Source of the DNA: Microbacterium hatanonis
GTDB lineage: Bacteria; Actinomycetota; Actinomycetes; Actinomycetales; Microbacteriaceae
Assembly: GCF_008017415.1 (NCBI RefSeq)
Contig: NZ_VRSV01000001.1
Span: 1,302,001 to 1,366,000 of the forward strand
DNA: 64,000 nucleotides
Direction of reading: 5' to 3'
Shown: positions 12,159-21,632 of the stretch, in pieces
Layout of the letters: every line of letters begins with the position of its first letter
Numbering within the stretch: the stretch's first letter is position 1
Position numbers and translations under genes: made by a program
The notes under the pieces: generated by a model
What the model was told of the DNA's origin: nothing
What the model saw: the letters and a program-made list of their open reading frames with translations, nothing else
Database searches by the model: none

Positions 12159-13562
12159 TCAGACGTGCAGGGTCGTGCCGCGCTGCGACTGCGCGCGCTG
12201 GATGGCCATCTGCTCGTCGAACTCCTCGCGCCAGTTCTCGCTGACGACGATCGCGTTGCGGGCTGCTTCCTCCGTCGACAGCTCCACGGGGAAGCCGAAC
12301 GTGTCGTAGAGCACGAACAGCTCACGACCCGTCACCCCCGTTCGGGAGTACTGGTTGAGCTGCCGGAGGCCCTTCCGCAGCGTTCGACGGAACGCCTGCT
12401 CCTCCTTCTCCAGGATGCGTTGCACGTCGGCCGTGTGCTCGCCCACCTCGGGGAAGTGCTCCTCGTAGATGCCGGCGATTGTGGGGATGATCTGCGGGAA
12501 GAAGTTCTCCTCCAGGCCGAGGTCGAAGGCGAAACGGATCGCGCGCCGGATGAGCCTGCGCATCACGTAGCCCTGCGCCTTGTTGCTCGGGGTCACCCCG
12601 TCGACGGCGAGGAACGTCGCCCCCCGCAGGTGATCGGCGATGACCCGCATGGCACGGGTGTGCTCGTCGTACGTGCGTCCTGAGAGCTCCTGCAGCCGCT
12701 CGATGATCGGCCAGAGGAGTCCGATGCGGAAGACGTCGGGGCTGTCCATCGCGGCAGCGGCGATCCGCGCCAGCCCTCCGCCGTAGTCGACATTGCGGCG
12801 CGGAAGCGGGGCGAAACCCTCCTCCGTGCGCTGGTACTCCATGAACACCGAGTTGCCGAGTTCGATGAAACGCCCGCAGTCGCAGTTCTGGTGGCAGTGC
12901 TCTCCGAACGCCGGGTCATGCTCGATCTGGGGGAAGAGGTAGAAGATCTCCGTGTCGGGTCCGCCGGGTTCGCCGACGGGCATATCGGCGGCGCTGCCGC
13001 CTCGACACCACCAGTTCTTCTTGCTGTAGAAGGCGATCCGCGCTCCCCCGGTGCCGACCGCGGCCGCATGCTCTTCGGTGCCGAGGTCGACGTGGTCGGC
13101 GCGGATGCCCTGCTCTTCGAACAGCCGCGACCAGATACCCGCGGACTCTTCGTCCTTCGGGATCCCGTGGTCCGGATCTCCGCTGAAGCACGAGACGAAG
13201 ATCCGGTCGGCCGACAGACCCACACGCTCGGTGAGAAATGCCCAGATCTGAGGGATCTGCTGCTGCTTGAAGTAGTCCCCCAAGCTCCAATTGCCGAGCA
13301 TCTCGAAGAAGGTCGTGTGCCGGTTGTCGCCGACCTCCTCGATGTCCTGAACGCGGAGGCAGGTCTGGCTGTCGGCGAGCCGAGTGCCGGCGGGATGCCG
13401 CGCACCCAGCAGGTACGGAAGGAGGGGCTGCATGCCGCTCCCGGTGAAGAGGGTGGTCGGGTCGTCCCGCGGGATCAGCGGGGCACGTGGGATGACCGTG
13501 TGTCCTCGCTCCTCCATGTACTCGAGGAACGCGCGGCGGATCTCGTCAGCGGTCAATGTCAT
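12159..13562 (-). CDS. Truncated stand-alone alanyl-tRNA synthetase core (AlaRS paralogue)
   Basis: A 467-residue class II synthetase that aligns with the N-terminal half of AlaRS (full length about 880). Catalytic landmarks are HTTFFEMLGNWSLGDYFK, a variant ELGNSVFMEYQR, and motif 3 DYGGGLARIAAAAM. The tRNA-recognition region follows with PSNKAQGYVMRRLIRRAIRF and VLYDTFGFPVEL. The protein stops there, so the editing domain with HxxxH and the C-Ala domain are missing. This is close to the E. coli 461-residue fragment known to charge alanine minihelices. An unusual Cys/His cluster, HCHQNCDCGRF, lies before motif 3. ATG 13562 has AAGGG eight bases upstream, better than GTG 13571. It is divergent from the tRNA-like sequence at 13678, a likely substrate. 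The housekeeping alaS must lie elsewhere. Confidence 0.9.
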   Translation of the reverse strand: MTLTADEIRRAFLEYMEERGHTVIPRAPLIPRDDPTTLFTGSGMQPLLPYLLGARHPAGTRLADSQTCLRVQDIEEVGDNRHTTFFEMLGNWSLGDYFKQQQIPQIWAFLTERVGLSADRIFVSCFSGDPDHGIPKDEESAGIWSRLFEEQGIRADHVDLGTEEHAAAVGTGGARIAFYSKKNWWCRGGSAADMPVGEPGGPDTEIFYLFPQIEHDPAFGEHCHQNCDCGRFIELGNSVFMEYQRTEEGFAPLPRRNVDYGGGLARIAAAAMDSPDVFRIGLLWPIIERLQELSGRTYDEHTRAMRVIADHLRGATFLAVDGVTPSNKAQGYVMRRLIRRAIRFAFDLGLEENFFPQIIPTIAGIYEEHFPEVGEHTADVQRILEKEEQAFRRTLRKGLRQLNQYSRTGVTGRELFVLYDTFGFPVELSTEEAARNAIVVSENWREEFDEQMAIQRAQSQRGTTLHV

Positions 13563-13662
13563 GGGTGGCACCCTTCGTTGGTCGTCCGTTCGATCGAGTC
13601 GGACAGCGTCGTCCGTACCTTCGGCGTCGTGTTGCCTCTCGCGCTTCTGCCCTCGCTGTGGA

Positions 13663-13668
13663 TATGAT
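13663..13668 (+). promoter_or_regulatory. -10 promoter element for the tRNA-like RNA
   Basis: TATGAT lies ten bases before the first base of the acceptor stem at 13678, so a start near 13675-13678 would begin the transcript at or next to nucleotide 1 of the tRNA-like fold. No strong -35 hexamer is visible at the 16-18 base spacing. Confidence 0.5.
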
Positions 13669-13677
13669 CACGGTCTC

Positions 13678-13731
13678 GGGGGACGCGCACATGAGGCGCC
13701 CTGTCAGGTGCGAATCCTGAGTCCTCCACCA
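13678..13731 (+). ncRNA. Mini-tRNA(Ala)-like RNA: acceptor/T-arm minihelix with G3:U70 and encoded CCA
   Basis: The 54-nt sequence folds like a tRNA without its lower half. Acceptor strand GGGGGAC (13678-13684) pairs over seven bases with GTCCTCC (13721-13727). Position 3 is G (13680) and its partner, position 70, is U (13725), the identity pair of tRNA(Ala). A73 (13728) and CCA (13729-13731) follow. The T-arm is TCAGG/CCTGA (13704-13708, 13716-13720) around TGCGAAT, which keeps T54, C56, G57, A58 and has G at 55. Between acceptor and T-arm there are only 19 nt, forming GCGC-N7-GCGC (13685-13699) plus CCTG. That loop lacks U33, so decoding is unlikely. It sits next to the truncated AlaRS gene. 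Expression and charging are inferred. Confidence 0.65.
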
Positions 13732-13781: not shown

Positions 13782-13801
13782 CAGGTGCAATTTTGCACCT
13801 G
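13782..13801. promoter_or_regulatory. Perfect 20-base palindrome before the PPTase-like operon
   Basis: CAGGTGCAATTTTGCACCTG is a perfect inverted repeat (9-base arms, TT centre). It lies 50 bases past the CCA of the tRNA-like RNA and 73 bases before the next start. The A/T-rich centre and symmetry suggest an operator for a dimeric repressor. With no T tract it is a poor terminator, but as RNA it could stop or protect a processed 3' end. Confidence 0.5.
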
Positions 13802-13874: not shown

Positions 13875-14450
13875 ATGGAGACGGTTCTGCTGAATGCACC
13901 GGACGGGATCTCCGCGCGGCTCGGATCCGATGCGCACGCCGAAGACCACGATCGCAAACGTCAGCTGGCCAGGGAGATCGTCGCAGCGAGGCTCCACGTC
14001 AGAGAGGACGACGTGCGGGTGGAGCGGGAGTCGCCCGCACAGTTCGGATACCACACCCGGCTGGTGGCGAGAGTGGCCGGAGCAGTGGTTCCCCTGGCGA
14101 TCACCAGCGCCGCCGCCGGCTCGTCGACCGTCGTCGTGGTGGCCGACAGCGTCGTGCCGTTGGGAATCGACCTTCGCTCCGCGCGGCCCGCCGCCGACGA
14201 GCTCGAGCAGATGCGTCAGCACTCTCACCTGTTCCCCGGCGTCAGCCGCGATGCCCTCCTGACCCACTGGACGCGCGTCCAGGCCGTCCGGCACGCTGAC
14301 GGGCGCGCACGCATACGGCCGGAGGAGGTCATGATCGACCCGGCTCTCGTGAGGGGGTGGGTCCCCGATCGACGGGTGCACTATCAGCTCGCCGATCTCT
14401 CTCACGGCAGCTGGACTGTCACCCTCGCCTACGGCGCACTCCCGGTCTGA
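13875..14450 (+). CDS. 4'-phosphopantetheinyl-transferase-like protein, catalytic residues degenerate
   Basis: The protein has 191 residues and resembles the C-terminal pseudo-repeat of Sfp/AcpT-type phosphopantetheinyl transferases. VVPLGIDLRSAR corresponds to the conserved GxD metal-binding strand, and HWTRVQAVRHADG to the W-[ST]-x-K-E-A-x-x-K-x-x-G helix. In the helix the usual Lys-Glu pair is Val-Gln and the downstream Lys is His, so metal binding and CoA chemistry are probably lost or changed. The end, WTVTLAYG, is family-like. ATG 13875 has GGGAG seven bases upstream. It is followed after 11 bases by cycA, so it is probably the first gene of that operon. Its place directly after the tRNA-like RNA suggests a shared role, not a proven one. 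Confidence 0.6.
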   Translation: METVLLNAPDGISARLGSDAHAEDHDRKRQLAREIVAARLHVREDDVRVERESPAQFGYHTRLVARVAGAVVPLAITSAAAGSSTVVVVADSVVPLGIDLRSARPAADELEQMRQHSHLFPGVSRDALLTHWTRVQAVRHADGRARIRPEEVMIDPALVRGWVPDRRVHYQLADLSHGSWTVTLAYGALPV

Positions 14451-14461
14451 GGACACGACGG

Positions 14462-15847
14462 ATGACGACGCAGGCCACCGCGGGAACGACGGAGCTCGAG
14501 CGCGGCCTCAGCAACCGCCACATCCAGCTCATCGCGATCGGCGGCGCGATCGGCACCGGTCTCTTCCTCGGTTCCGGCATCGGGATCCATGCGTCCGGAC
14601 CGTCCATCCTCCTGGTCTACGTCGTCGTCGGACTGATGCTGTTCGTCATGATGCGGGCGATGGGAGAGCTGCTGCTCTCCAATCTCGGGTACCGCACCTT
14701 TCAAGACTTCGCCGCCGACTATCTCGGGGACTGGGCGCGATTCTTCGTCGGGTGGACCTACTGGTTGTGCCTCCTCTCCATCGCAGCCGCCGACGTCGTG
14801 GGCATCCAGACGTATGCGAGATTCTGGTGGCCCGAGCTGCCCGGCTGGGTCCCCATGACGATCGCCGTGGTCTTCGTCCTCGGGCTCAATCTGGTCGCGG
14901 TGAGGGCGTTCGGAGAGGCGGAGTTCTGGTTCGCGCTCATCAAGGTCGTCACCATCCTCGTGCTGATCGTCGTCGGAGTCGTCCTGATCGTCATCGGGTT
15001 CACCTCGCCGAACGGCGACCAGGCCAGCGTGACTCATCTGTGGGACGAGGGCGGGTTCTTCCCGAACGGGTTCGTGGGCTTCCTCGGCGGCTTCCAGATC
15101 GCCATCTTCGCGTTCGCGGGGATCGAACTGGTCGGCACCACCGCGGCCGAGGCGAAAGACCCCGAGAAGAATCTGCCGAAGGCGATCAACCAGGTGCCGC
15201 TGCGCATCCTGTTCTTCTACGTGCTCGCCCTGGGTGTGATCGTCTGCGTGACGCCGTGGACCGAGGTCGACCCGTCCGAGAGCCCGTTCGTCGCGCTCTT
15301 CACCCTCGTAGGTTTCGCGGGTGCGGCCGGGGTCATCAACGCGGTCGTCATCAGCTCGGCGACATCCGCAGCCAACAGCGGCGTGTTCTCATCGAGCCGG
15401 ATGGTCTACGGGTTGGCGACGACCCATCAGGCTCCGGCAGTCTTCTCCCGACTCACCCGTACGGCGGTGCCCGGATTCGCGCTCGTGCTCTCGTGCGTCA
15501 TCGTGCTGGTGAGCGGCTCTATCGGCATGATCTTCGACGACGCGTTCCAGCTCATCACCACGGTGTCGTCCATACTCTTCCTCTTCGTCTGGTCGGTCAT
15601 CCTGGTCGCGTACCTCGTCTATCGCCGCCGCCGCCCCGACCTCCACGCTTCCTCCACCTACCGGCTCCGGTGGGGTGTTCCGCTGTGCTGGCTGGTGCTG
15701 GCGTTCTTCGGTGCGATGGTCGTGATCCTCGCGCTCTTCGAGAGCACGCGGGTACCGCTGCTCTGGACGCCGCTGTGGTTCGTCATCCTGGGCGGCGTCT
15801 ATCTCGTCGTGCGGCGCCGCGTCGCGCGGCCGAACCCGGAGCGGTGA
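14462..15847 (+). CDS. cycA: D-serine/D-alanine/glycine permease, CycA type
   Basis: A 461-residue amino-acid/proton symporter of the AAT (APC) family with 12 predicted membrane helices. It starts with the family signature LSNRHIQLIAIGGAIGTGLF, then MRAMGELLLSNL, FGEAEFWFALIKV and IFAFAGIELVGTTAAEAKDP. Over its length it is much closer to E. coli CycA than to other AAT permeases, for example SANSGVFSSSRMVYGL and the SVTPW-like stretch. CycA imports D-Ala, D-Ser and Gly, so the substrate is a family inference. It lies 11 bases after the PPTase-like gene and 3 bases before the lactate permease, so all three are likely one transcript. Confidence 0.9.
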   Translation: MTTQATAGTTELERGLSNRHIQLIAIGGAIGTGLFLGSGIGIHASGPSILLVYVVVGLMLFVMMRAMGELLLSNLGYRTFQDFAADYLGDWARFFVGWTYWLCLLSIAAADVVGIQTYARFWWPELPGWVPMTIAVVFVLGLNLVAVRAFGEAEFWFALIKVVTILVLIVVGVVLIVIGFTSPNGDQASVTHLWDEGGFFPNGFVGFLGGFQIAIFAFAGIELVGTTAAEAKDPEKNLPKAINQVPLRILFFYVLALGVIVCVTPWTEVDPSESPFVALFTLVGFAGAAGVINAVVISSATSAANSGVFSSSRMVYGLATTHQAPAVFSRLTRTAVPGFALVLSCVIVLVSGSIGMIFDDAFQLITTVSSILFLFVWSVILVAYLVYRRRRPDLHASSTYRLRWGVPLCWLVLAFFGAMVVILALFESTRVPLLWTPLWFVILGGVYLVVRRRVARPNPER

Positions 15848-15850
15848 CCT

Positions 15851-17470
15851 ATGTGGACCCAGTCGATCGATCCCACCGGGCAGCTCTGGCTCTCGGCTCT
15901 CGTCGCGGTCGTGCCGATCCTCGTCTTCCTGCTGTGTCTCGTGGTCTTCAAGCTCAAGGGGATCACGGCGGGAATCATCGCCGTCGTGCTCCAGGTGGTG
16001 ATCGCGGCATGGCCGTTCGGGATGCCGGCGGAATCCATCGCCGGGGCGGGTCTCCTGGGCATCCTCACCGCCGTCTGGCCGATCGCGTACATCATCGTCG
16101 CCGCCGTATGGCTGTACAAGCTCGCCGTGGCCAGCGGCCGATTCGACGTCATCCGAGCGAGCATCTCGGGGATCTCCCCCGACCAGCGCATCCAGGTACT
16201 GCTGATCAGCTTCTCGTTCGGAGCCTTCCTCGAGGGGGCGGCGGGCTTCGGCGTGCCGATCGCGATCTGCGCGGCACTTCTCGTTCAGCTGGGTTTCGGC
16301 CCCGTGAAGGCGGCGATGCTCTCGCTCGTGGCGAATGTCGCTGCCGGCGCATACGGAGCCATCGGGATCCCGGTCATCATCGGCGCCCAGGTCGGTGAGG
16401 TCGGGTTGTCGGGGCTCACCCTCGACATGGTGCTGGTGCTTCAGCTGCTGACCTTCGCGGTGCCCTTCATTCTCGTCATGATCCTCGACGGGTGGCGCGG
16501 GGTGCGGGAGACATGGCCGGTGACGCTGGGTGTCAGCGCTGCGTACAGCGTCGTCCAAGCCGGCATCCTGATCTTCCTCGGCCCCGAGCTCGCCGACATC
16601 GTGCCGGGCCTGTTCGGAATGGTCGTCATCTTCGTGATCGGCCGGGTGTGGCAGCCCCAGCGCATCTACCGCGAGGACGGCGGTGACGTGCCTGCCGTCG
16701 ACAAGCACGACTTCGGCGAGGTGGTCGTGGCGTGGAGCCCGTTCTACATCCTCACCGCGGTGATCTTCGTCTGGAGCATCCCGTGGTTCAAGTCGCTCTT
16801 CGCTGCGGACGGGCCGCTCTCATGGCTCGTGTTCAGCGTGCCGATCCCCGGGGTGACGGGAGCCATCGTGCCCGCGGGGTCGGACGCCCCGGTCGCTACA
16901 GCCTGGGCGTTCACCCCGGTGAATGCGACCGGAACCGCGATCCTGGTGGCGGTGCTGATCACGTTCTGGACGACCCCGCAGCTGCGTACCCGTGATCTCT
17001 GGGCTCAGCTGGCGGCGACCGTTCGAGACCTGTGGCGACCGGTGATCCTCATCGCCTTGATCCTGGTCGTCGCCAACATCGCGAACTTCTCGGGAGGCTC
17101 GGCGAGCATCGGCAACGCCCTGGCGGCCGTCGGGCTCCTCTTCCCGCTCTTCGCGCCCATCATCGGATGGTTCGGAGTGTTCATCACCGGGTCGGTCGTG
17201 AACAACAACACCCTCTTCGCGCACCTGCAGTCGGTGACGGCCCAGCAGATCGGCGTCGATCCGACCCTGCTGGTGGCTGCGAACACTGCGGGCGGCACCG
17301 TCGCGAAGGTCGTGTCACCCCAGTCGATCGCCATCGCCGCGGGAGCGGTGGGCTTGACGGGCCGCGAGGGCGAGATCCTGCGCGCTTCCATCAAGTACAG
17401 CCTCGGGATGCTCGTCTTCGTCTGCGTCTGGGTCTTCCTGCTCTCGCTCGTGATGCCACACGCGAGCTGA
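15851..17470 (+). CDS. lctP: L-lactate permease family transporter
   Basis: A 539-residue polytopic membrane protein of the LctP family with about 13 hydrophobic segments. Family landmarks include ITAVWPIAYIIVAAVWLYKL-type region near residue 75, SFSFGAFLEGAAGFGVPIAI, and a C-terminal VVNNNTLFAHLQ with NTAGGTVAKVVSPQSIAIA. LctP proteins import lactate, and often glycolate, by proton symport. It begins three bases after cycA. No lactate dehydrogenase gene is nearby, so the physiological substrate here is uncertain. It is convergent with the esterase gene, with only 13 bases between them. Confidence 0.9.
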   Translation: MWTQSIDPTGQLWLSALVAVVPILVFLLCLVVFKLKGITAGIIAVVLQVVIAAWPFGMPAESIAGAGLLGILTAVWPIAYIIVAAVWLYKLAVASGRFDVIRASISGISPDQRIQVLLISFSFGAFLEGAAGFGVPIAICAALLVQLGFGPVKAAMLSLVANVAAGAYGAIGIPVIIGAQVGEVGLSGLTLDMVLVLQLLTFAVPFILVMILDGWRGVRETWPVTLGVSAAYSVVQAGILIFLGPELADIVPGLFGMVVIFVIGRVWQPQRIYREDGGDVPAVDKHDFGEVVVAWSPFYILTAVIFVWSIPWFKSLFAADGPLSWLVFSVPIPGVTGAIVPAGSDAPVATAWAFTPVNATGTAILVAVLITFWTTPQLRTRDLWAQLAATVRDLWRPVILIALILVVANIANFSGGSASIGNALAAVGLLFPLFAPIIGWFGVFITGSVVNNNTLFAHLQSVTAQQIGVDPTLLVAANTAGGTVAKVVSPQSIAIAAGAVGLTGREGEILRASIKYSLGMLVFVCVWVFLLSLVMPHAS

Positions 17471-17483
17471 ATCCCTCCCCGCC

Positions 17484-18785
17484 TCAGGGAGCCGAGAGGC
17501 CGAGCACGGGGTAGAGAACCCGGAACCCCTCGTCGAGGCCGCCGGTGATGGCGGAGACGAGGTGGTCGGCGCCGGGGACCACGTAAGACGTGACAGACAT
17601 CCCGGCCTGCTGCGCCGCCGCGGCGACGGTCTGGGATGCGGCGACGAAGCCGGGGTCCTCGCTTCCCGCGGTGAAGACCGCGGTCGTTCCCGCGTAGGTG
17701 CCCGGCGAGGCTGAGCTCATGATGTTGACGGGCTTCGACGCGTCGAAGGCGGCCTGGTCGCCGCCGTAGATCGTGGCGAGCACGCCGGACACGTCCTCGG
17801 ACCCGGGGAACTCCTCCCCCGACACATCGATGATGTTGGAGAACATCTCCGGGTAGGCGGCGCCGTACTTTATCGCGCAGCCGCCTCCGTTGGAGTATCC
17901 GGCGATGACCCAGTAGCGGGGGTCGTCGATGATCTTCAGATTGGCGCGGGCCCAGGCGGTGACGTCCTTCGTGATGTACGTCTCGGCCGCGCCGTACGCC
18001 GCGGAGTCGGCGCACGCGGGATCCTGGCTGCTCCCGGTGCCCCCGATCTGATCCGCGACGATGACGATCGGGGCGAGGCCGTCATGGTCGGCGGCGTACT
18101 GGTCGAGCACGCCGGCGATGAACGACACGTCGGGGTTGCCGGGATAGCCCATCATCATGATCACGAGAGGCAGTGCAGGAGCATCGGGGGCCAGCGCGGC
18201 AGGTGGGAGGTAGATCCCGGCGGGACGGGCGACGAACCCCGACTGCGTACCGGGGATGTTCTGCGTTCCCTGCTGCCCGGCCGCCGCCAGATCCTCGGGG
18301 GCCCTCCACGTCGTGTAGATGGGCTGCGCGGGCGCGGCGGTGGAGCCACCCGTCTGGGGAACGTCGATGGGCGCGTCGACGACGACCCCCAGCAGGGATC
18401 CGAGTGTCGGGTTGAGTCCGTAGTAGGCGTTCACACCGATGACGCCGCTCACGAGGAACCAGACCACGGCCACCCCGGCGACGACGCGCCGCCAGGGCCG
18501 GGAGCGAGGAAAGGACGCGACCCCCAGACCGACGGCTGCGAAGCATCCGGCCGCCCAGAACCCCACGGTGAGGGGCAGGTCGGTGCCGAAGGCCTCGACG
18601 GCATTCGCCACCAGGAAGAGGACCAGTCCTGCCGCGGCACCGCCGACGAGGCCGATCGACGCCCGCGCCCACCAGCCGTCGCCGACGGGGCGAGCGAGCA
18701 GGACGATCGCGAGGACGACAACGCCGCCGTAGACCAGCCACATGGCCGGTGAGTCGATGATCGGCAATCTCAGAAGTGCGTCCAC
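17484..18785 (-). CDS. Membrane-bound putative esterase (alpha/beta hydrolase), candidate aminoacyl-lipid hydrolase
   Basis: A 433-residue protein. Four hydrophobic segments occupy about residues 10-125, followed by an extracellular hydrolase domain of the putative-esterase group. The nucleophile is in WVIAGYSNGGGCAIKYG (Ser near 297). The acid is probably in FTAGSEDPGF and the base in VPGADHLVSA. GTG 18785 follows AAGGAG by six bases. It is 20 bases downstream of the membrane-protein gene and shares a neighbourhood with the MprF-like synthase. In Pseudomonas an alanyl-phosphatidylglycerol hydrolase and in corynebacteria an esterase are linked to aminoacyl-lipid turnover, so this gene could remove alanine from lipids. 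That function is inferred from context. Confidence 0.75.
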   Translation of the reverse strand: MDALLRLPIIDSPAMWLVYGGVVVLAIVLLARPVGDGWWARASIGLVGGAAAGLVLFLVANAVEAFGTDLPLTVGFWAAGCFAAVGLGVASFPRSRPWRRVVAGVAVVWFLVSGVIGVNAYYGLNPTLGSLLGVVVDAPIDVPQTGGSTAAPAQPIYTTWRAPEDLAAAGQQGTQNIPGTQSGFVARPAGIYLPPAALAPDAPALPLVIMMMGYPGNPDVSFIAGVLDQYAADHDGLAPIVIVADQIGGTGSSQDPACADSAAYGAAETYITKDVTAWARANLKIIDDPRYWVIAGYSNGGGCAIKYGAAYPEMFSNIIDVSGEEFPGSEDVSGVLATIYGGDQAAFDASKPVNIMSSASPGTYAGTTAVFTAGSEDPGFVAASQTVAAAAQQAGMSVTSYVVPGADHLVSAITGGLDEGFRVLYPVLGLSAP

Positions 18786-19514: not shown

Positions 19515-21632
19515 ATGAGCGAGTCGCAGAAGACCGGCGGAGCCGAGGTCGCGAAGGAGCCCGACCGCTCTCCCGTGCCCCGCGTGATCAGGGTCGTCTC
19601 CCGCATCCCGGCCACCGCGTCGTTGGTGGTGCTCGTCCTGGCGGCGGGGATCGCGTCGCAGGGTCTGTGGACGGCGGCGTCAGCGCAGGCGTGGTGGCCG
19701 GCCGTCGCCTACGGCCTCCCGTCGCTCCAGGAAGGGCGGTGGTGGACGCCGGTCACGGGCACGTTCTTCGTCGTCGACCCGTGGGCCTACGTGCCGACCA
19801 TGATCGCGTTCTTCTGGGTGGGGCTGCTGGAGTGGCAGCGGGGAACGCGGGTGACACTGCTGTACTTCGTGGGTGGTCAGCTGTTCGCCGTCCTCGCGAC
19901 CACGGCGTTCCTCGCCCTCGCGGGCATGCTGGCGTGGCCATGGGCGGTGACCCTCGCGGGCACGCTGGATGCCGGGCCGTCGGGCGGGACGATGGCCTGT
20001 TTCGCGGCGTGCGTCGGGTTGTTCGCGTCGCCGTGGCGACAGCGGGCGTGGATCGTCGTGTTCGGCTACGTCGTGATCGGCGTGCTGTTCTTCGGCACGC
20101 TCGCCGATCTCGAGCATGCGTTCGCAGTCGTCCTGGTCCTGGCGATCGACCGCTCGTTCCGCATCAGGCTCGCGAGCACTCGGGAGCGCCGGTTCCTCGC
20201 CTTCGCCATCAGCCTCGCACTCGGCGTCGTGCAGCTGATCACCCTGGTGATCCCGACGAACGGTCCTTTCGGACCGACCGCGGCCCTGGACGGATCGTGG
20301 ATCGAGGTCGCCGTCGACGTCGTGGTGATCCTCCTCGTGTCGAACGGACTCCGTCGCGGACGGCGATGGGCGTGGACGCTGTCGGTCATCTGGGCGAGCG
20401 TCAACGTGCTCGTCGCCGGACTGTACGTGGTGCTCGCGGTCGCTTTCCCCGCCGATGCGCCTCTGGAGTGGGGCGACACGGATGTGTCCATCGCGACCTC
20501 GGTGCTGTGGCTCCTGTTCTTCGCCTACCTTCTCGCCACTCGGAGCGCGTTCGGCACGCGCAGGCGCCGTCAACTCGGGGTCGAGCGCGGCACGCGCTCG
20601 CCCGACCCGGCGACGGCCGACGATGCTCGTGAGCTCATCGAGACCCACGGCGGCGGCACTCTCTCGTGGATGTCGACGTGGGAGGGGATGGACTACTTCC
20701 GCACGTCGGATCGACTCGTGCCGTACCAGAAGCATGCCGGTGTCGTCGTCGCTCTCGCCGATCCCCTCGGGCCGCCCGAGGCCGCGCGGACGAGCGTTGC
20801 GGAATTCATCCATGCTGCGGAGCGCTCGGCCCTCATCCCGTGCTTCTTCAGCGCCAGCCAGGTCGTGCGCGACGTGCTCCCCACCGGATGGCGGTCGCTC
20901 GTCATCGCCGACGACACGATCGTCGATCTCCCGGGGCTGGCCTTCACGGGGAAGCCGTGGGCGCACGTGCGCACCGCGCTCAACAAGGCCGATCGCGAGG
21001 GCATCACCTTCCGGATGACCACCCTCGCCGCCGAGACATGGGGCATCCGCCAGCAACTCCGAGCGATCTCCGAATCGTGGGTGGGAGACAAAGGACTGCC
21101 TGAGATGCGTTTCACGCTGGGCACGCTGCAGGAGGCGGAGGCGTCCGAAGTGCGACTCGCCCTGGCGATCTCGGCGCAGGGCGATGTCGACGGATTCCTC
21201 AGCTGGCTCCCCGTCTACGGTCCCGCGGGCGAGCACCGCGGGTGGACGCTCGACCTCATGCGGCGGCGCGACGGCGGGTTCGCCGGAGTCATGGAGTTCT
21301 TGATCGGGTCGTCGGCACGCGTGTTCGCCGAGGAGGGCGCGCAGATCCTGTCGCTGTCGGGGGCGCCCCTCGCGCACGAGGTCGGTGAAGACGAAGGGCG
21401 CATCGCCCAGATGCTCGAACAGCTCAGCAGCATCCTCGAACCGGTGTACGGATTCCGGTCCCTGCATCGCTTCAAGCAGAAGTTCAACCCGCGCTACGAG
21501 CCCATCTATCTGCTCTACCGGGACGAGGGAGACCTCGCGCGCATCGGTCCGGCTCTCGTGAGGGCGTTCCTCCCCGATGCCACGCTCCGGCAGTACGCGG
21601 GCGCCGGCATTGACATGCTGCGAGGGAGCTGA
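19515..21632 (+). CDS. MprF-like aminoacyl-phosphatidylglycerol synthase with rhomboid-like membrane domain
   Basis: A 705-residue protein. The N-terminal half has about ten hydrophobic segments. The first block resembles the rhomboid fold, with GPSGG near residue 155 and a DLEHA histidine near 200, positions that recall the rhomboid Ser/His pair. The C-terminal 340 residues are the DUF2156/MprF catalytic domain with two GNAT-like folds: LVPYQKHAGVVVALADPLGP, WAHVRTALNKADREG, LDLMRR and LHRFKQKFNPRYEPIYL. MprF-type enzymes move lysine or alanine from aminoacyl-tRNA to phosphatidylglycerol on the inner leaflet, reducing negative surface charge. The substrate here is not visible in sequence. 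The nearby AlaRS core and mini-tRNA(Ala) suggest alanine. ATG 19515 is 7 bases after a possible -10 box. Confidence 0.85.
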   Translation: MSESQKTGGAEVAKEPDRSPVPRVIRVVSRIPATASLVVLVLAAGIASQGLWTAASAQAWWPAVAYGLPSLQEGRWWTPVTGTFFVVDPWAYVPTMIAFFWVGLLEWQRGTRVTLLYFVGGQLFAVLATTAFLALAGMLAWPWAVTLAGTLDAGPSGGTMACFAACVGLFASPWRQRAWIVVFGYVVIGVLFFGTLADLEHAFAVVLVLAIDRSFRIRLASTRERRFLAFAISLALGVVQLITLVIPTNGPFGPTAALDGSWIEVAVDVVVILLVSNGLRRGRRWAWTLSVIWASVNVLVAGLYVVLAVAFPADAPLEWGDTDVSIATSVLWLLFFAYLLATRSAFGTRRRRQLGVERGTRSPDPATADDARELIETHGGGTLSWMSTWEGMDYFRTSDRLVPYQKHAGVVVALADPLGPPEAARTSVAEFIHAAERSALIPCFFSASQVVRDVLPTGWRSLVIADDTIVDLPGLAFTGKPWAHVRTALNKADREGITFRMTTLAAETWGIRQQLRAISESWVGDKGLPEMRFTLGTLQEAEASEVRLALAISAQGDVDGFLSWLPVYGPAGEHRGWTLDLMRRRDGGFAGVMEFLIGSSARVFAEEGAQILSLSGAPLAHEVGEDEGRIAQMLEQLSSILEPVYGFRSLHRFKQKFNPRYEPIYLLYRDEGDLARIGPALVRAFLPDATLRQYAGAGIDMLRGS

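Follow-up and report, generated by a model that had tools for sequence, protein, structure and literature searches.

A 54-nt gene in the window, as we call the whole 64,000-nucleotide stretch of DNA analyzed here, specifies one of a conserved family of RNAs that resemble tRNA(Ala) without an anticodon arm. That this RNA family is real is near certain, and on comparative sequence evidence its members are very likely alanine carriers. We lean slightly toward a reading in which the mini-tRNA is alanylated by the adjacent alanyl-tRNA synthetase (AlaRS), which is reduced to its core, and then likely passes the alanine on to a membrane lipid, by way of an MprF-type transferase, rather than to the ribosome. 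Lipid alanylation is the best single candidate for the receiving reaction, about an even bet across the family as a whole and a better one in the branch that has the AlaRS core. Table 1 collects the features of the window on which this reading draws.

Table 1. Features of the window at and around the mini-tRNA gene
Feature	Position	Strand	Evidence
Mini-tRNA(Ala) gene, encoded CCA included	13678..13731	+	Sequence; model R3; 48-copy alignment
Acceptor stem, GGGGGAC paired with GTCCTCC; G3:U70 is 13680:13725	13678-13684 with 13721-13727	+	Sequence, fold, alignment
D-arm, stem GCGC/GCGC, 7-nt loop ACATGAG	13685..13699	+	Sequence, fold; compensatory changes at 3 of 4 pairs family-wide
T-arm, stem TCAGG/CCTGA (13704-13708/13716-13720), loop TGCGAAT (13709-13715)	13704..13720	+	Sequence, fold; compensatory changes at 3 of 5 pairs family-wide
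Discriminator A73 (13728) and encoded CCA (13729-13731)	13728..13731	+	Sequence, alignment
TATGAT, possible -10 box (weak)	13663..13668	+	Sequence, nine bases before the first G
Inverted repeat CAGGTGCAATTTTGCACCTG of 8 bp without a T-run; may mark the end of the transcript (weak)	13782..13801	+	Repeat search
Core-only AlaRS of 470 aa, starting at GTG or at an ATG three codons downstream; predicted charging enzyme of the mini-tRNA	12159..13571	-	PF01411; solved AlaRS fragments; homologue lengths
Membrane esterase (PF00756), probable alanyl-lipid hydrolase or exchanger	17484..18785	-	PF00756; relatives near the mini-tRNA in L004, L013, L016, L219, L278
Membrane aminoacyl-lipid synthase with an LPG_synthase_C domain (PF09924), probable recipient enzyme; start uncertain within a frame open from 19011	19515..21632	+	PF09924; relatives near the mini-tRNA in L004, L013, L016, L278

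A miniature tRNA(Ala) gene

The first-pass annotation of this DNA had described a 54-nt mini-tRNA(Ala)-like RNA at positions 13678-13731, and sequence, pattern scan and fold confirm it. The elements it listed, namely a 7-bp acceptor stem with G3:U70, A73, CCA, a T-stem, and a T-loop that keeps T54, C56, G57 and A58, were all present when the sequence was re-read; position 55 of the loop is G. It had further stated that 19 nt replace the D-arm, the anticodon arm and the variable region. The anticodon arm and variable region are indeed gone, but the D-arm is not: the stretch holds a hairpin with a 4-bp D-stem, followed by a 4-nt linker, CCTG, that leads into the T-arm. What the RNA shares with a canonical tRNA is thus the acceptor stem, the T-arm and the A73/CCA end; what is missing is the anticodon arm and variable region, and 4-5 nt join the D- and T-arms in all 48 copies of the alignment described below. 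The minimum free energy fold of the 54 nt is exactly this three-stem form, at -22.8 kcal/mol, an energy that is itself unexceptional (z -1.25; 23 of 200 shuffles at least as stable). Run on the window, ARAGORN and Rfam 15 called no tRNA and no RNA family there.

Distribution of the mini-tRNA family

A strict pattern scan over 84 sequences (the window, three loci of its own genome, and 80 AlaRS-related loci, the best 80 of 587) found matches in Williamsia (L004) and two Pseudonocardia (L013 and L016), each with G3:U70. Covariance model R1, built from these three copies and that of the window, matched only its own four copies in 82 sources, with the best other match at E 6; in whole genomes R1 detected three further copies, a second one in Williamsia, one in Subtercola, and a diverged one in genome G039. 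In a survey of the phylum (E 1e-3), 17 of 396 genomes were matched, with mini-tRNAs in G000 and G039 only. Among the other 15 matches, 11 overlap ordinary tRNA-Tyr or tRNA-Ala genes called by ARAGORN and four span 85-86 nt. A survey of the order with model R2 found the mini-tRNA in 21 of 396 genomes, four of them in the family of the window and 17 in a family (f6) that homologue names identify as Micrococcaceae. Of 149 Micrococcaceae genomes, 48 carry the gene, and it is present in 11 of the 32 genera. In the genus of the window its distribution is sporadic: apart from the window's own genome, G686 was the sole congener with a mini-tRNA in the order survey. Free-standing mini-tRNAs are 54-56 nt long across the 48 aligned copies.

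The family can be recovered from one side of this distribution without knowledge of the other. Model R3 was built on a MAFFT alignment of 30 distinct Micrococcaceae copies and includes no copy from the family of the window. In a search of 540 kb it recovered the window copy at 43.9 bits (E 3.4e-7) along with all nine non-Micrococcaceae copies, and its best match outside the RNA family scored 14.3 bits (E 2.7). The earlier judgment that a chance match is hard to accept is upheld by this result.

Williamsia carries two mini-tRNA genes that differ at one base (L004 13204-13259 and L126 9871-9926), the first in a lipid cassette, the second elsewhere and without lipid genes. A further 35-nt match in that organism (L125 1501-1535; 21.3 bits) resembles an acceptor stem plus D-arm without a T-arm and may be chance or a remnant. 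Spread by phage and by plasmid was considered in a narrow look and set aside. Among 31 viral stretches that fit one half-pattern of the Williamsia/Pseudonocardia type, five reached 18.1 bits with R2 (E 0.76), and the other 26 had no R2 match at E 1; one Pseudonocardia copy had no match among plasmids.

Covariation and invariant elements

We aligned 48 copies (38 distinct), nine from outside the Micrococcaceae and 39 from among the 49 Micrococcaceae genomes with a match, by fitting them to the covariance model, leaving out five weak viral matches. Standard pairs fill 99.8% of the 608 stem cells, and 48 cells are changed on both sides. The covariation score of 0.262 exceeds that of all 500 shuffles (0.090 +/- 0.010), and versions with the structure slid along the alignment reach at most 0.077; the number of pairs with double changes and the count of pair types are unexceptional, with 85 and 72 of 500 shuffles as high. 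The signal comes from the D- and T-stems, because five of the seven acceptor pairs are invariant. When the 30 distinct Micrococcaceae copies are aligned by themselves with MAFFT, pairing is 100% and the covariation score is 0.127 vs 0.053. Compensatory changes, proposed earlier as a check, are seen in the D- and T-stems of relatives, and the strict conservation of G3:U70 proposed alongside them holds: all 38 distinct copies have G3:U70, A73 and C74. The gene itself encodes the CCA in 31 of the 48 copies.

In four Microbacteriaceae copies, and in no other row, a G to A change at the D-loop position called 18 accompanies a T to G change at position 55 of the T-loop. These paired changes fit a kept elbow contact, and could also stem from one evolutionary event. 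Both a chance match and a decayed tRNA gene are ruled out by the covariation together with the independent R3 match.

Mini-tRNA genes stand alone

Of the 48 copies, 28 are followed within 80 nt by a hairpin of at least 12 bp, whereas such a hairpin turned up in 1 of 960 control stretches and in none of the 48 upstream ones; for hairpins of at least 8 bp the counts are 32 of 48 vs 110 of 960. The controls are random stretches from the same loci and are mostly coding. The hairpin that follows the mini-tRNA of G873 is 18 bp long and terminator-like. Signals at the window copy are weaker. The TATGAT reported upstream is there, although one base nearer to the RNA than the ten bases first given, and a two-hexamer promoter scan at this copy found no promoter; a terminator scan of the window scored none, the inverted repeat of Table 1 included.

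The mini-tRNA is a gene of its own. We considered a regulatory leader of the downstream reading frame and set it aside as the main reading, because copies lie upstream of, downstream of, divergent from or apart from different genes, and 28 of 48 have a long hairpin just downstream. In the window, a 191-aa reading frame (13875-14450) comes right after the mini-tRNA; by eye it resembles a phosphopantetheinyl transferase, but neither Pfam nor NCBIfam gave a match at E 0.001. Next, at 14462-17470 and ahead of the lipid genes, come a CycA-like permease of the D-serine/D-alanine/glycine type and an LctP lactate permease, neither of which is beside the mini-tRNA in the other loci compared.

The AlaRS core

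The neighbor on the opposite strand had been read as a truncated AlaRS that ends after the recognition region, a description borne out by profile and structure alignments. The protein matches PF01411 at 354 bits (residues 10-464 to profile positions 1-430 of 552) and scores 382 and 359 bits with two NCBIfam models of full alanine--tRNA ligase, below their respective cut-offs of 529 and 457 bits. Aligned to solved AlaRS fragments, it is a class II enzyme that ends after the tRNA-recognition part, with no editing or C-Ala part. A full-length AlaRS is encoded in the same genome as well, in a 982-codon frame that is 38-45% identical to the core in matching pieces.

The reduction looks from the sequences like a family trait. 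The best 120 of 7988 homologues of the core are 452-489 aa long, in a search that considered proteins 0.55-1.75 times as long as the query and listed 120 of the 7988, and so cannot reveal full-length relatives. In the scan without a length limit, the closest relatives among the matches listed (best 80 of 587) are 463-500-codon frames in Actinomycetota and 626-652-aa proteins in Saccharibacteria-type genomes. In a tree of 25 sequences the cores split into two groups placed among Saccharibacteria-type AlaRS. The main one has 11 rows (support 100/100); the other, beside L012, has five (Subtercola plus Brachybacterium/Brevibacterium-type; support 88/77). This placement suggests horizontal transfer, in one direction or the other. 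In the first survey of the genus of the window, an AlaRS core was absent from 34 of 34 congeners (E 1e-120).

In E. coli AlaRS, according to PMC10036535, G3:U70 is read by N303 and D400. Residues 330 and 423 of the window core align with positions 302 and 399 of the E. coli chain, which correspond to N303 and D400 since the first residue is missing from that chain, and the Asn and Asp are kept in all 16 cores.

Proximity of the mini-tRNA and the AlaRS core

The first-pass annotation had proposed a search for such RNAs next to AlaRS-core genes across Microbacteriaceae, and the proximity does recur there, with changing orientation. With start codons uncertain throughout, the two genes are divergent and 106 bp apart in the window, and divergent too in G686 (68 bp) and G565 (108 bp); in G725 the mini-tRNA follows the core by 78 bp on the same strand. 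The arrangement is convergent in the two Pseudonocardia, at 150 and 183 bp. In Williamsia the genes are 3.8 kb apart, and in Subtercola they are on different contigs. Whole-genome searches with R1 or R2 found a mini-tRNA in eight of the 16 genomes that have an AlaRS core. Among the 396 genomes of the order survey, eight have the core, 21 the mini-tRNA and four both (one-sided Fisher P 0.0004, kinship ignored).

None of the 17 Micrococcaceae mini-tRNA genomes of the order survey is among its eight AlaRS-core genomes (protein survey, E 1e-120), and a separate check of G039 found no core there. Without the core, an ordinary AlaRS would have to charge the mini-tRNA in the Micrococcaceae. The original proposal of a dedicated, non-decoding alanine carrier charged by its neighbor has fared well on compensation in the D- and T-stems, on G3:U70 and on proximity, but the pairing with the core is not universal, given the eight of 16 core genomes that have a mini-tRNA and the core-less Micrococcaceae.

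Probable lipid modification genes near the mini-tRNA

An all-against-all comparison of loci brought out two shared neighbors of the mini-tRNA, an LPG_synthase_C protein and a membrane esterase. In the window these lie 5.8 kb and 3.8 kb from the mini-tRNA, respectively, and both had been overlooked in the first-pass annotation. The window synthase belongs to the MprF family (PF09924 at 215 bits over residues 372-668), and its N-terminal membrane part was judged by eye from hydrophobicity.

One or both genes occur near the mini-tRNA in six genomes (window, Williamsia, two Pseudonocardia, G686, G873), in varied arrangement. The esterase lies 194 bp downstream of the mini-tRNA in Williamsia and is followed by the synthase. 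In both Pseudonocardia the esterase precedes the synthase, which ends 49 bp before the mini-tRNA. G686 has the esterase only, directly after the AlaRS core. G873, the single Micrococcaceae locus of 38 that is not beside mshD, has a synthase-esterase pair that starts 317 bp after the mini-tRNA, and is an independent case of lipid-gene proximity. Neither synthase nor esterase is present in the 20-kb loci from G565, G725 and Subtercola or in that around the second mini-tRNA gene of Williamsia.

At the level of whole genomes, a full-length synthase relative is present in eight of eight genomes with both mini-tRNA and AlaRS core, and in two of eight core genomes without the mini-tRNA (G321 and G819). 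The synthase is independent of the AlaRS core, since three of nine core-less congeners tested have it (G007, G031, G034). Seven Micrococcaceae mini-tRNA genomes were tested: two, G833 and G864 (82% complete), have no synthase match at E 1e-20, and the other five match the C-terminal half of the synthase only. Six synthase loci from five Micrococcaceae mini-tRNA genomes include two with an esterase nearby. Other recipients are possible, because half of the core genomes lack the RNA, the Micrococcaceae lack the core where checked, and two of the seven tested lack the transferase.

G686 also has a second esterase relative (L272 3680-9110), 57% identical to that of the window and about 2 kb from its synthase gene, apart from the one behind the core.

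A proposed route for alanine

In the route that we propose, the mini-tRNA would be transcribed from a small gene of its own and then trimmed, its CCA end being either encoded or added. The AlaRS core, without the editing and C-terminal tRNA-elbow domains, would read G3:U70 and attach alanine; this is predicted from its kept residues and from published minihelix charging, such as that by aminoacylation fragment N453 of A. aeolicus AlaRS (PMC10036535). Where no core has been found, as in the Micrococcaceae, the ordinary AlaRS is predicted to do the charging. The E. coli enzyme charges a bare acceptor stem about 60-fold worse than tRNA, as reported in PMC10036535, so charging of the mini-tRNA by a full-length AlaRS is not assured.

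The resulting Ala-RNA could not decode, because it has no anticodon arm, and weak binding to EF-Tu is a further possible property, at which the T-stem hints. T-stem pairs A51-U63 and A49-U65 are named in PMC4052509 for a tRNA(Gly) that escapes EF-Tu. A51-U63 is found in 38 of 38 mini-tRNA copies, none of four ordinary tRNA(Ala) and 14 of 46 ordinary tRNAs compared, and A49-U65 in 31 of 38 copies but also in all four tRNA(Ala); since both occur in ordinary tRNAs, they are a hint only.

The LPG_synthase_C enzyme would then transfer the alanine to a lipid, either phosphatidylglycerol or diacylglycerol, and the resulting alanyl-lipid would be modified or removed by the membrane esterase; both steps are suggested by the gene neighborhood. 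The outcome would be an alanine supply for the envelope that does not compete with translation. Smith et al. in 2015 reportedly found a neighboring esterase to be needed for alanyl-phosphatidylglycerol in Corynebacterium glutamicum. MprF1 is described as accepting an alanine minihelix, with selectivity proposed to rest on the aminoacyl moiety (PMC4052509), and an MprF homologue of C. glutamicum is reported to make alanyl-diacylglycerol (PMC10580965).

Alternative explanations

The alanine might instead go to another tRNA-dependent transferase, a FemX/MurM-type peptidoglycan-bridge enzyme or some other acyltransferase, above all in the Micrococcaceae; we regard this as unlikely. It draws on the 38 Micrococcaceae loci compared with G039, 37 of which have a gene for an mshD-like GNAT acetyltransferase beside the mini-tRNA (34 of the 38 also have a GlnR-like gene within 1.5 kb), but the mshD position may be mere vertical inheritance, and where the mini-tRNA has moved, it is lipid genes that lie beside it, not FemAB. 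The two tested Micrococcaceae genomes without a lipid synthase favor a different recipient, and Weissella FemX, according to PMC4052509, uses Ala-tRNA and reads its acceptor end. FemAB-type proteins are indeed encoded in 126 of 149 Micrococcaceae genomes; their presence is nevertheless non-discriminating, as all 32 genera have FemAB and 11 have the mini-tRNA, and at least seven of the 48 mini-tRNA genomes have no FemAB match at E 1e-10 (G567, G814, G878, G889, G895, G910, G923).

A second alternative, which we consider quite improbable, separates the two genes: the AlaRS core would be a stand-alone backup for ordinary tRNA(Ala), the mini-tRNA would have a role of its own, and their proximity would reflect co-transfer on mobile stretches. 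Cores without a mini-tRNA in eight of 16 genomes, among them those of an island that also encodes ZnuA, an FMN reductase and a ribonucleotide reductase subunit, accord with such a backup, as does the report that a viral mini-AlaRS can replace yeast AlaRS (PMC10036535). Yet the proximity survives rearrangement in six genomes, and the four co-occurrences of the order survey also argue against independence.

Very improbable, in our view, is a regulatory RNA, whether a charging-state sensor or an AlaRS decoy, that controls neighboring genes or alanine metabolism. Regulators are close by in several genomes (the GlnR-like gene of the 34 Micrococcaceae loci; an Lrp/AsnC-type gene in G725), but the position of the RNA relative to different genes varies and most copies have their own downstream hairpin; an acceptor end that is invariant up to C74, with CCA encoded in most copies, is moreover less needed by a decoy.

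We find it scarcely credible that the locus is a chance match or a decayed tRNA gene, or that it is the tRNA-like half of tmRNA surviving as a relic or in stand-alone form. Alanylation by way of G3:U70 and the lack of an anticodon arm are features of tmRNA too, but ARAGORN called no tmRNA in the window or the 13 loci scanned, Rfam had no match in the window, an RNA of 54-56 nt is too short to hold a tag frame, the D-stem is a true one with compensatory changes, and conservation in 48 of 149 Micrococcaceae genomes plus the R3 match excludes decay and chance. Peptide extension of the PEARL type is also disfavored; the one PEARL studied is described as depending on the anticodon arm (PMC12550832), which is absent here.

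Relation to known systems

Minihelices made of the acceptor and T half of a tRNA are laboratory tools and the basis of ideas on the origin of the genetic code. We know of no natural family of free-standing, anticodon-less, aminoacylatable RNA genes in bacteria, and found no description of such an RNA in our searches of open-licence PubMed Central full text; for these two reasons we call the mini-tRNA family new in kind, while the chemistry it would use is of known kinds.

In structure it resembles the tRNA-like domain of tmRNA, which shares the alanine type, G3:U70, the T-arm and the lack of an anticodon arm. The tmRNA is several hundred nt long, has a tag frame and is not known to have a true D-stem, whereas the mini-tRNA is free-standing, has a 4-bp D-stem and has no tag frame. 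The S. aureus non-proteinogenic tRNA(Gly) isoacceptors that serve the pentaglycine bridge are likewise tRNA-type RNAs set aside for envelope chemistry (PMC4052509, PMC9976931), and A51-U63 is common to both; these are full-length and have an anticodon, in contrast to the alanine-type mini-tRNA, which in some lineages is accompanied by a reduced synthetase of its own. Armless nematode mitochondrial tRNAs are also natural miniatures, but are described as losing the D- and/or T-arms and serving translation (PMC7730189, PMC12221289), whereas the mini-tRNA loses the anticodon arm.

On the enzyme side, the Tupanvirus mini-AlaRS (TuAlaRS) is likewise reduced to the aminoacylation part and charges acceptor-stem RNA as well as tRNA. 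According to the same source, PMC10036535, it serves full-length tRNA(Ala) and has lost the G3:U70-reading Asn and Asp, whereas the bacterial cores keep both and have Saccharibacteria-type rather than eukaryotic AlaRS as relatives. LysX, a synthase fused to LysRS, is a lipid aminoacyl-transferase with its own synthetase activity, and the MprF homologue AlaDAGS of Corynebacterium makes an alanyl-lipid (PMC10580965); the system considered here differs from both in having a separate AlaRS core and a dedicated carrier RNA.

A broader idea, which to our minds stands evenly poised, is that free-standing anticodon-less tRNAs are a private amino-acid currency of the envelope: they would never decode, would in part have their own Saccharibacteria-related reduced synthetase, and would bring alanine to lipid-modifying enzymes while sparing the supply of the ribosome. 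If true, such an RNA would be a living counterpart of the minihelix and of the operational-RNA-code idea; a conserved bacterial gene family near minihelix form, partly beside a synthetase of the aminoacylation-core type, would give that idea a natural case. The authors of PMC10036535 describe TuAlaRS as, to their knowledge, the sole natural synthetase with just an aminoacylation domain. If the bacterial cores are active, it would not be the only one.

AlaRS cores in other settings

Genome G321 (L222 10801-10860) has a gene order like that of G725 and keeps the core but lacks a mini-tRNA in the corresponding gap, which makes it a natural loss with which G725 can be compared. In four loci of the Brachybacterium/Brevibacterium type (L022 135-7976, L018, L224, L225), a core without a mini-tRNA comes after genes for an FMN reductase and the small subunit of ribonucleotide reductase, and a gene for a ZnuA-type zinc-binding protein is nearby; here the core is perhaps a stand-in at metal shortage. 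In two Rhodococcus-type loci (L005 4134-10580 and L006 4105-10481), from genomes in which no mini-tRNA was found, the core lies between cobN and a sulfite/nitrite-reductase-like (cobG-like) gene, with almost no gap on one side.
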